Below are positions 9,615-13,129 of a stretch of 64,000 nt of DNA, in pieces. This DNA is from Butyrivibrio sp. CB08. Its GTDB lineage: Bacteria > Bacillota > Clostridia > Lachnospirales > Lachnospiraceae. A model generated the notes under the pieces. That model was not told where the DNA came from and ran no database searches. It was given only the letters and a program-made list of their open reading frames with translations. A program made the translations under genes and the position numbers. The stretch spans positions 1 to 64,000 of the forward strand of contig NZ_RAIR01000003.1 of NCBI RefSeq assembly GCF_003625485.1. Direction: 5' to 3'. Each line of letters starts with the position of its first letter. The first letter of the stretch is position 1.

Positions 9615-9643
9615 TTGACAAATACCCCCTTAGGGTATATCAT
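9615..9643 (+). promoter_or_regulatory. csoR-copA promoter
   Basis: TTGACA (9615-9620) and TATCAT (9638-9643) are 17 bases apart. The spacer is almost entirely filled by the first CsoR operator, so bound repressor would block RNA polymerase directly. Confidence 0.8.
9622..9638. promoter_or_regulatory. CsoR operator 1
   Basis: ATACCCCCTTAGGGTAT is a 17-base GC-centred palindrome of the CsoR type, located between -35 and -10 of the copper operon promoter. Confidence 0.8.
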
Positions 9644-9656
9644 GCAATCATGATAG

Positions 9657-9673
9657 ATACCCAGAGGGGGTAT
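9657..9673. promoter_or_regulatory. CsoR operator 2
   Basis: ATACCCAGAGGGGGTAT is the same 17-base site in opposite orientation, in the leader just downstream of the expected transcript start. The two centres are 35 bases apart. Confidence 0.75.
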
Positions 9674-9693
9674 TTTATATGGAGGGAAAAGAG

Positions 9694-10046: not shown

Positions 10047-12644
10047 ATGGAACAATATAAAGTTACAGGGATGAGCTGTGCTGCCTGCCAGACAAGAGTT
10101 GAGAAGGCGGTCAGCGCTGTTGACGGCGTTGAGAGCTGTGCAGTGAGCCTTCTTACCAACTCCATGGGAGTTGAGGGAAATGCTCGTCCGGAAGATATAA
10201 TTGCTGCGGTTGAGGCAGCAGGGTATGGAGCAAGTGTTAAAGGCAGCGGATCTGAAAATGGAGCCGGCAGCGGAAGCAGCGGCAGCGGCGCCGGAGCCGG
10301 AACCATTAGCAGCGCATCAGCCGACGATTCTCTCAAAGACACCGAAACCCCCAAGATGAAAAAGCGTCTCATCTGGTCGATAGTTCTCCTGGTTCCACTT
10401 ATGTACGTGTCCATGGGACACATGCTCTGGAACTGGCCACTACCAGGATTCCTTGATGGCAATCACGTTGCCATGGGAATATATCAGATGCTTCTGGCAG
10501 GAATGGTAATGGTCATCAACCAGAAGTTCTTTATTAGCGGATTCAGGGGGCTCATTCACAGGGCTCCAAATATGGATACACTGGTGGCGCTGGGTGCTAC
10601 CGCATCTTTCGGTTACAGCGTAGTGGCGCTCTTTGGAATGAGCCGAGCCGTCATGGATGGCAACCAGGACCAGGTCATGTACTTCATGAACCAGTTCTAC
10701 TTTGAGGCGGCGGCCATGATCCTGACCCTTATTACTGTGGGCAAGATGCTGGAGGCAAGGTCCAAAGGCAAGACCACAAGCGCCCTTAAGGGACTTATGG
10801 ATCTGTCACCCAAGACCGCGGTGGTCCTCAAGGATGGCGCAGAAGTTACCGTTCCAATAGAGACCGTGAAGGTTGGAGATAAATTCGTAGTAAGGCCCGG
10901 AGACAGCATTCCTGTTGACGGCGTTGTGTCTGAAGGCGAGAGCGCAGTGAACGAATCTGCCCTTACCGGCGAGAGCGTTCCTGTTGAGAAGAACGTGGGC
11001 GACACGGTTTCTGCTGCTACCATCAACACCTCAGGCTACATGGTCTGCGAGGCTACAAGGGTTGGCGAGGACACCACTCTTTCAGCCATCATCAGGATGG
11101 TCAGCGACGCTGCGGCCACCAAGGCACCCATCGCCAAGATCGCCGACAAGGTTTCAGGCGTGTTCGTGCCAGCTGTAATAGGCATCGCACTGGTGACATT
11201 TATCGCTTGGCTCATTGCAGGACAGAGCGTTGGATACGCCATCGCAAGAGCGGTTTCAGTGCTTGTTATCAGCTGCCCATGCGCTCTTGGCCTGGCAACT
11301 CCTGTTGCTATCATGGTTGGAAACGGCGTTGCAGCTAAGACCGGGATCCTCTTTAAGACCGCAGCTTCTCTGGAGCAGGCGGGCAGGACCCAGATCCTGG
11401 CCCTTGATAAGACCGGAACCATCACAACCGGCGAGATGAAGGTTACCGACATCCACCCACTTAACGCATCTTCAGAAAAAGAGCTGCTGACAGTAGCCTA
11501 CGCTCTCGAGTCAAAGAGCGAGCATCCAATCTCCAAGGCAGTTACAGACTACGCCAGCGAGAACCACATAGAACTTGCAGAGACAACAGAATTCGAAGTC
11601 CTCTCAGGAAACGGCCTTAAGGCCAAGCTTAATGGCAGCGAGATCACCGGCGGAAGTGCCAAATACATAGGCAGTTTGATCGGAGGACTAAGTAAAGAGA
11701 CTGATGAACTTATAAAGCATCTTGCAATGGAAGGGAAGACGCCAGTTCTTTTCACCAAGAGCGGAGCGCTTCTGGGCGTCATCGGAGTTTCGGATGTGAT
11801 AAAAGAGGATTCCACAGAGGCAATCGCAGAGCTTAAAAAGCTGGGAATCCACACGGTTATGCTGACCGGCGACAACGAGGTTACCGCAGCTGCGATCGCA
11901 GCCCAGGCGGGAGTTGACGAGGTTGTTGCTTCCGTCAAGCCAGATGGCAAGGAGGCTGTGGTAAAGCAGCTCATGGAGCACGGCGTTGTGACCATGGTGG
12001 GCGACGGCATCAACGACGCTCCGGCTCTGACAAGTGCGAACCTTGGAATCGCCATCGGCGCTGGAACAGACGTTGCCATCGACGCGGCTGACGTGGTTCT
12101 CATGAAGAGCAGCATCAGGGATGTTGCGGCGGCCATCAGGATCTCAAGAGGGACACTTAGGAACATTCACGAGAATCTTTTCTGGGCATTTTTCTACAAT
12201 GTCCTTGGAATACCGCTTGCTGCGGGATGTTACGTGGCGGCTTTCGGATGGGAACTTAATCCTATATTTGGCGCAGCAGCCATGGGACTATCGAGCTTTT
12301 GCGTGGTGTCCAATGCGCTTCGCCTTAACTGGCTTAAGCCCTACGACAGCAAAGGCGATAAAATAGTTAAAAACCCTGTAACAGGGATTTTAATAGAACA
12401 GAAAACTGAAATTGAAACAATAAAGGAGAACAACGAAATGAAGATCAAAGTTAACGGAATGATGTGTGGACACTGCGAAATGCACGTAAAGAAGGCTCTT
12501 GAGGCAATTGAGGGAATCGAAAGCGCAACAGCATCTCACGAGGAGAACCAGGTTACAATCGCTACATCTGCAGATGTTGATGAGGCTGCGATCAAGGCAG
12601 CAGTTGAGGAAGCAGGCTACGAGTACGCTGGAATTATGGAGTAA
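10047..12644 (+). CDS. copA: copper-exporting P1B-type ATPase with C-terminal CopZ-like domain
   Basis: The 865-residue protein expels Cu(I) across the membrane. In order it has an N-terminal metal-binding domain with CAAC (C11, C14); a Gly/Ser/Ala-rich linker (about 68-96); membrane helices; the actuator TGES; the CPC transport motif (C410, C412); the phosphorylated D454 of DKTGT; the HP motif; and GDGINDAP. The core would normally end after [10 protein letters not shown] near 770. Here the frame continues through a short linker into a second metal-binding domain with CGHC (C807, C810), which resembles a free CopZ chaperone and keeps its own start signals. It is controlled by CsoR. Confidence 0.95.
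12374..12386. other. relic intergenic hairpin inside the copA frame
   Basis: CCCTG-TAA-CAGGG preceded by five As and followed by ATTTTAAT lies in the codons for the CopA-CopZ linker. In shape it is a weak terminator, now read through as protein. Confidence 0.45.
12438..12644 (+). CDS. copZ: internal start for a free 68-residue CopZ-like copper chaperone
   Basis: Inside copA and in the same frame, AAAGGAG (12422-12428) stands 9 bases before ATG 12438. Initiation there would give a 68-residue heavy-metal-associated domain with MMCGHC at residues 8-13, the length and sequence of a stand-alone CopZ that hands Cu(I) to CopA. The strength of this site suggests that free CopZ is made as well as the fusion. 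E. coli copA also yields a free metal-binding domain, though by frameshifting and from the N-terminus. Proof needs protein data. Confidence 0.55.
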
Positions 12645-12649
12645 AGAAC

Positions 12650-13129
12650 ATGATCACTGAGCTGAGTCCATCCTACGACCTGGAGCTTGCGGAGCTCATC
12701 AGGGTCAACCTAAAAAAGCACCATCTTGATATCCCAGGCACGGTCTATTTTGATGACAACTTGAATCACCTCAGCGACTTTTACCTGGCTGAGCCATCAA
12801 AGCGCAGTTATTTCATCATGACTGATGATGATGGCAGGCTCGTTGGCGGCATCGGCCTTGCGGAGCTTGAGTTTATCGAGGACTGCTGCGAGCTGCAAAA
12901 GCTGTATCTTTCAGATGACGTTAAGGGTGCGGGGCTTAGCTATAAGCTTATATCCCTCGTCGAGGACAAGGCAAAAGAGCTGGGCTACAAACGGATGTAT
13001 CTCGAGACCCACGACAATCTTGCTGCGGCCATTCATGTCTACGAAAAAGCTGGCTTTAAAGAAATTGATAAGCCAGCCGGCGTTGTTCATGCTACAATGA
13101 ATAGGTTCTTTATAAAAGAACTTGGCTGA
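12650..13129 (+). CDS. GNAT-family N-acetyltransferase
   Basis: The 159-residue GNAT protein transfers an acyl group from acyl-CoA to an unknown amine. Motif A, the CoA-binding part, is LYLSDDVKGAGLSYKLISL; instead of the common Q/RxxGxG it has VKGAGL. The C-terminal ETHDNLAAAIHVYEKAGFKEI is textbook GNAT. GGAG overlaps the copA stop codon region 8 bases upstream, so it may be translated from the copper operon transcript, but nothing else ties it to copper. Confidence 0.85.
   Translation: MITELSPSYDLELAELIRVNLKKHHLDIPGTVYFDDNLNHLSDFYLAEPSKRSYFIMTDDDGRLVGGIGLAELEFIEDCCELQKLYLSDDVKGAGLSYKLISLVEDKAKELGYKRMYLETHDNLAAAIHVYEKAGFKEIDKPAGVVHATMNRFFIKELG

Follow-up and report, generated by a model that had tools for sequence, protein, structure and literature searches.

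A Conserved Internal Start in Fused copA–copZ Genes of Clostridia May Yield a Free Copper Carrier beside a Tethered One

Introduction

The window analyzed here, a stretch of 64,000 nucleotides from Butyrivibrio sp. CB08 (contig NZ_RAIR01000003.1, positions 1 to 64,000), contains a copA gene whose reading frame continues past the copper pump into a CopZ domain, and a Shine-Dalgarno sequence (SD) and an in-frame ATG stand directly ahead of that domain. Genes for CopZ often share an operon with the pump (PMC7558416). The question raised by this locus is whether such a gene makes a single protein, in which the carrier is tethered to the pump, or two proteins, the second of which would be a free CopZ translated from the internal start.

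Results

The Fused Gene and Its Neighborhood

The fused gene is a single open frame of 865 amino acids on the forward strand (10047–12644) that encodes, in order, an N-terminal metal-binding (heavy-metal) domain, the CopA pump core (ending at residue 767), a linker of 30 amino acids (12348–12437, forward strand) and a CopZ domain of 68 amino acids. The Pfam domains assigned to it (HMA in two stretches, E1-E2 ATPase and hydrolase) agree with this order and bear out the proposal of an earlier note on this DNA that the CopA frame continues through a linker into CopZ. The membrane CPC and MxxSS motifs, which belong to the motif list of P1B-1 copper ATPases, are both intact, as expected of a CopA, and the gene scores above the cut-offs of TIGR01525 and TIGR01511. 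The C-terminal domain has the features of the CopZ/Atx1 group, an HMA domain of about 70 residues with a CxxC copper site (PF00403, E = 5.5e-17; copper-site motif GMMCGHC); it matches the solved CopZ 6ff2 (E = 2e-8) and reaches 63.1 bits against the NCBIfam CopZ equivalog, below the 85-bit cut-off. The motif MxCxHC is ascribed to a prokaryotic CopZ2-like subgroup (PMC7558416).

The linker has a G+C content of 0.31, versus 0.54 in the CopA core, and its peptide is not conserved. Toward its end lies the internal SD, AAAGGAG (12422–12428, forward strand), whose bases form part of the in-frame codons ATA AAG GAG (Ile-Lys-Glu) and which is followed, after a gap of 9 nucleotides, by an ATG (12438–12440) in frame with CopA; initiation there would result in a free CopZ of 68 amino acids (12438–12644, forward strand).

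Directly upstream on the same strand is a gene for a CsoR-type repressor (PF02583; 9679–10032), likely the regulator of the copA–copZ operon, in which a Cys-rich N-terminal extension (CSCCCS) precedes the domain. A sigma-70-like promoter (TTGACA-17-TATCAT; 9615–9677, forward strand) overlaps TACCCCC/GGGTA inverted repeats; read by eye, two TACCC(C)/GGGTA repeats lie over and after the promoter-like site (9622–9677) and are candidate CsoR operators. A GNAT acetyltransferase gene (12650–13129) begins 5 nucleotides past the copA–copZ stop and is perhaps part of the same operon.

A CopZ profile search of the whole CB08 genome returned four matches, two of which are the domains of the fused gene itself, and found no second close CopZ. 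The third match is an HMA protein of 129 amino acids (L274, G000:C19:392186-392380), hydrophobic over an N-terminal stretch and bearing a Cys-rich patch; we take it to resemble FeoB-associated proteins. The fourth, a weak match (E = 9e-4), is a small CxxC HMA-like protein (L290, G000:C16:263180-263323) that adjoins an ArsR-like regulator. This last protein probably belongs to another metal system; it could, on the other hand, serve as a second soluble carrier, a point against the two-protein reading proposed below.

The Fusion Is Common in Clostridia

For a less biased picture than the named relatives give, 250 genomes of the family, from 249 genera, were searched with a profile of 35 CopZ domains, followed by 80 of the 102 low-scoring ones, and a gene was called fused when the CopZ match lay inside an open frame of at least 800 amino acids. 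By hand count, fused copA–copZ is present in at least 174 of the 250 genomes, namely in 137 among the matches listed in the first pass and in 37 in the low-scoring pass, which covered all but 22 of the low-scoring genomes; the profile found no match in three of the 250. All 100 regions fetched from this survey are C-terminal fusions, as are 57 of 59 hand-chosen regions from further families in the class and from some other classes in the phylum. The 80 named relatives, being the best 80 of 590 by full-length match, lean towards fused genes.

Separate copA–copZ pairs also occur in the family, where CopA is mostly 43–48% identical to that of CB08; one such pair (L185), with a CopA that is 64% identical, stands near the fused type. 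A quick tree was built from 245 CopA C-termini, leaving out six rows without the end motif; support is weak at 110 of its 242 inner branches, and the distribution of fused and separate genes requires four changes on it. The fusion is common in Clostridia and is no recent accident. Loss of a stop codon, which the earlier note put forward as a possible cause, may still underlie the fusion, but not as a recent event, given its presence in many families and some other classes and the four changes on the tree.

Three fused genes with the internal site (L014, L071 and L075) come from records titled Treponema (MAG), Pyramidobacter and Synergistaceae (MAG), which lie outside Bacillota; transfer and binning error are possible causes. 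Plasmid records of Butyrivibrio fibrisolvens D1, Roseburia sp. 831b and Ruminococcus albus 7 list a single pump gene, in an incomplete gene table. The internal ATG is present in all three plasmid genes, which stand outside the 241 junctions analyzed below. R. albus has a strong SD before it (AAGGAGG; internal site of pRUMAL02, L285: AAGGAGGATAATACAATG); the SDs of B. fibrisolvens (AAGGAA) and Roseburia (GAGGAA) are weaker. The R. albus plasmid pRUMAL02 is typed as conjugative.

The Internal Start Is Conserved and Selected at the DNA Level

We compared 241 fused junctions, made up of sets of 176 and 57 and of eight later ones. The 176 were left from 181 after removal of L022 (CopZ deleted) and L078 (contig end), neither of which has the anchor, and of three duplicates of named loci; the 57 were left from 59 after L254 and L255 were dropped as N-terminal matches. 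Seven of the 57 missed our first CopA-end pattern and were counted as fused on the strength of about 300 open codons upstream, and four of those seven (L244, L248, L257 and L259) also missed a wider pattern. The later junctions comprise three included for an adjacent copZ, two long frames, a second copy from the genome of L022 and two with a free copZ match. One locus with a disrupted CopZ frame (L202, G179) was left out of the counts.

An internal start was scored where an in-frame start codon lay 4–14 codons before GMxC and was preceded, at normal spacing, by an SD match of at least 5 nucleotides. This rule is passed by 228 of the 241 junctions, including all 57 from the wider class and phylum, and 224 of the 228 use ATG; an SD match of at least 6 nucleotides is present in 192 of 241. 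In an alignment of CB08 and seven relatives, AAAGGAG is identical in seven of the eight sequences (L012 has AAAGGAC), and L008, outside this alignment, has AAGGAA. The linker peptide drifts and its length varies greatly while the DNA signal stays.

The linker of CB08 also contains an inverted repeat, CCCTG-TAA-CAGGG (12374–12386, forward strand), which the earlier note described as a small hairpin with a T-rich tail (12374–12390) and listed among the signs that the linker looks like a former gap between genes. The hairpin itself is present, but it does not rise above chance (fold z-score −1.0; 3 terminator-like sites in the region versus a shuffle mean of 3.5) and is not conserved, the perfect stem being kept in one of seven aligned relatives (L004) and stem and T-rich tail together in 3 of 233 junctions. 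On fold, shuffle count and lack of conservation we reject a relic of a terminator, and we judge the repeat incidental. The idea of a former intergenic gap with a terminator is likewise not supported, and L009 lacks nearly the whole linker and yet keeps both SD and ATG.

Because an SD can arise as a by-product of the codons for Lys-Glu, it might be held that selection acts on the protein, for a Lys/Glu-rich linker of suitable flexibility or charge. Lys-Glu is indeed frequent at the SD (90 of 161 scored junctions), and when the peptide of 179 junctions (three duplicates among them) was held and synonymous codons were redrawn from the same gene, an SD match of at least 4 nucleotides was expected in 166.8 and observed in 173, so that the peptide alone explains nearly all of these. 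Longer matches tell against this account: at least 5 nucleotides are matched in 170 of the 179 junctions versus 129.9 expected (standard deviation 4.9), and at least 6 nucleotides in 143 versus 72.3 (standard deviation 5.5), excesses of about 8 and 13 standard deviations, respectively. Codon choice points the same way, with GAG as the glutamate codon of the SD in 124 of 134 cases versus 1920 of 3880 (about 50%) elsewhere in the same genes, and AAG-GAG as the spelling of Lys-Glu in 76 of 86 pairs at the SD versus 118 of 568 elsewhere; for these counts, and for the spacing given below, the start was picked by its best SD, which biases slightly to GAG, and the recoded sequences were given the same choice. 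The same SD is moreover written in different frames as KE, EE, QE, ME, TE, GE, GD, GG and others, and its occurrence as Gly-Glu, Gly-Asp, Gly-Gly, Gln-Glu and Met-Glu argues further against selection for lysine and glutamate, which we regard as an exceedingly improbable source of the signal.

These codon-level tests also bear on two other accounts. It is conceivable that the SD and ATG are functionless leftovers of a once separate copZ, and the separate copA and copZ pairs found in the same family make a fusion of neighbors plausible; such leftovers would nonetheless have had to persist across many families, in 228 of 241 junctions, with biased synonymous sites, amid linkers of variable peptide and length, and we give this account next to no credence. 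Alternatively, free CopZ might be released by proteolysis at the linker, with internal initiation playing a minor part. Linkers so variable in sequence and length may be cleavable, but cleavage leaves the conservation of synonymous sites and of the start codon unexplained, and we think it very unlikely as the main route. The gap between SD and ATG is 9 nucleotides in 129 of 161 scored junctions. Of 1255 in-frame ATGs in the CopA core, 3.9% have an SD match of at least 6 nucleotides, although each of these was a single candidate and the junctions offered the best of a few; the start of copA itself has such a match in 44 of 78 cases, less often than the internal site. Predicted structure is weak at the internal starts (mean MFE −6.3, versus −21.1 at core ATGs; 222 each), and in CB08 the region around 12438 is predicted to be mostly unpaired.

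Judged by these comparisons of sequence, the internal SD–ATG is real, conserved and selected at the DNA level across more than two hundred relatives, and the 228 junctions and the codon-level tests together place copA–copZ among genes with a conserved in-frame ribosome-binding site and internal start codon. The earlier note had described AAAGGAG 9 bases before the ATG as a start signal that survives within the fused frame; the signal is there, far beyond chance across relatives, but "survive" understates the case, since it looks selected rather than left over.

Double-CopZ Proteins and Loss of the Start

A slowing effect on ribosomes has been proposed for intragenic SD-like sequences, and the internal SD might in the same way be a pause site that allows CopA to insert into the membrane before CopZ is made, with no initiation at all. 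The joint conservation of the ATG and of its spacing from the SD is not what a pause site calls for, and a second line of evidence comes from the four proteins seen whose single frame ends in a pair of CopZ domains (L102, L140, L182 and L275). In all four an SD–ATG precedes the last CopZ and in none the first, at the border with CopA; such a placement agrees with a single free CopZ product and disagrees with a pause at the CopA border. No SD–ATG was found before the second N-terminal metal domain in any of the three such domains. Loss of the signal, moreover, goes together with an extra copZ gene, as described next, and we hold a pure pause site to be very unlikely.

The earlier note named fused relatives without an internal site as the case that would count against internal initiation, and such relatives exist: 13 of the 241 junctions fail the start rule. 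Seven of the 13 (L029, L037, L074, L138, L183, L264 and L265) are followed immediately by a separate copZ, versus two of the 228 that keep the start (L263 and L132/L268, each with an adjacent copZ-like gene), a difference with a Fisher P of 7e-9, although junctions share ancestry and such P values overstate their independence. Adjacency was taken from flanks for the named and the class and phylum loci and from search listings for the rest, and the flank is under 240 nucleotides at L017, L024, L066 and L227. At three loci the adjacent copZ was known before the junction was read, and the forecast loss of the start held at two: the start codon is gone in L264 and the SD in L265, and both are retained in L263. 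Without these three loci an adjacent copZ accompanies 5 of 11 lost starts versus 1 of 227 retained ones (P = 4e-7). When start loss and adjacent copZ were compared in independent pairs on the tree, there were four pairs, on starred branches, too few for power.

For three further junctions without the start (L057, L172 and L178), a separate copZ lies at another place in the genome. The genomes of the remaining three (L034, L130 and L145) contain no short separate CopZ as far as searched; L034 and L130 keep a 4-nucleotide SD. A short free CopZ match (E under 1e-8, frame under 115 amino acids) is also found, by hand count, in 7 of 20 genomes that keep the start.

The separate CopZ proteins of L263–L267, L269 and L270 are of one shared type (GM.C..CE.H.N...F..KKV.SS, ending.PY), unlike the fused CopZ, and six of these seven genomes have lost the start. 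In Butyrivibrio sp. M55 (G541), one copA copy (L022) is without nearly all of its CopZ, and a second fused gene elsewhere in the genome retains CopZ with the SD–ATG.

Discussion

The best explanation of these data, and in our view a very probable one, is that the fused gene encodes two proteins, a tethered CopZ and, by internal initiation, a free one. Ribosomes initiating at 10047 would make a copper-exporting ATPase with CopZ tethered at its C-terminus, and others, binding AAAGGAG and initiating at the ATG at 12438, would make the 68-amino acid CopZ in the same frame, a soluble copper(I) carrier that would feed the pump. Both products would come from one transcript, probably under the control of CsoR, so that the pump and its carrier would be co-produced, with the internal SD determining the amount of carrier per pump. 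The tethered CopZ probably serves direct hand-over to the pump, or regulation. That initiation occurs at 12438 and that free CopZ accumulates we infer from sequence. The suggestion of the earlier note that one gene may give both CopA–CopZ and free CopZ draws strong support from the recoding test, the GAG bias, the breadth of conservation and the double-CopZ proteins; its interpretation as a whole is partly supported.

The nearest likeness is the copA gene of Escherichia coli. There the carrier is the N-terminal part of the protein, and the slip motif CCCAAAG follows closely on the first metal-binding domain, the −1 frame soon running into a stop. From this one gene come a copper pump and, by programmed ribosomal frameshifting, a small CopZ-type carrier, CopA(Z) (Meydan 2017 and Drees 2017, as cited in PMC7558416 and PMC10187127). 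The CB08 gene would likewise give a pump and a small carrier, but its carrier is the C-terminal domain and would be translated in the same frame from an internal start. CCCAAAG is absent from the fused gene, which has two XXXYYYZ heptamers, one within the first domain (codon 43) and one in the linker (codon 775); judged by its slippery sites, the gene does not fit an E. coli-type frameshift system.

In the copA–copZ operons of Enterococcus, Bacillus and Staphylococcus the same two proteins often come from one operon (PMC7558416), as annotated on Staphylococcus plasmids; they are the products of two separate genes, and CopZ is not tethered as it is in CB08. The CopA of Archaeoglobus fulgidus resembles the fused protein in having metal-binding sites at both ends, including a C-terminal one, and the passages of PMC7558416 that treat it mention no internally started separate product. 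Full-length and C-terminal products of one gene are described for two-polypeptide endolysins, with an internal start in the same frame (PMC9430671), and for SpaO and its short form (PMC13059759). In SpaO and some endolysins the short product forms a complex with the long one, whereas the short product of CB08 would be a complete diffusible carrier. We found no report of a fused copA–copZ with an internal start in Clostridia in the open-licence text of PubMed Central.

More broadly, we think it reasonably likely that this is an old, Clostridia-wide dual-coding gene, that free CopZ comes mainly or solely from the internal start in most of these species, with the strength of that start fixing the ratio of free to tethered carrier, and that the start has been given up mainly where a separate copZ was gained; such a gene would be a solution to making pump plus carrier that evolved independently of frameshifting in E. 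coli. The plasmid records that list only the pump, incomplete as their gene table is, suggest that many gut and rumen genomes may contain an overlooked small protein of this kind. Synonymous changes can abolish the SD with the fused protein left intact, and the gene thus offers a test bed for separating the tethered from the free carrier. If our reading is true, this would be a second and mechanistically different case of a copper pump and its carrier made from one bacterial gene, which would suggest that their co-production is itself favored.
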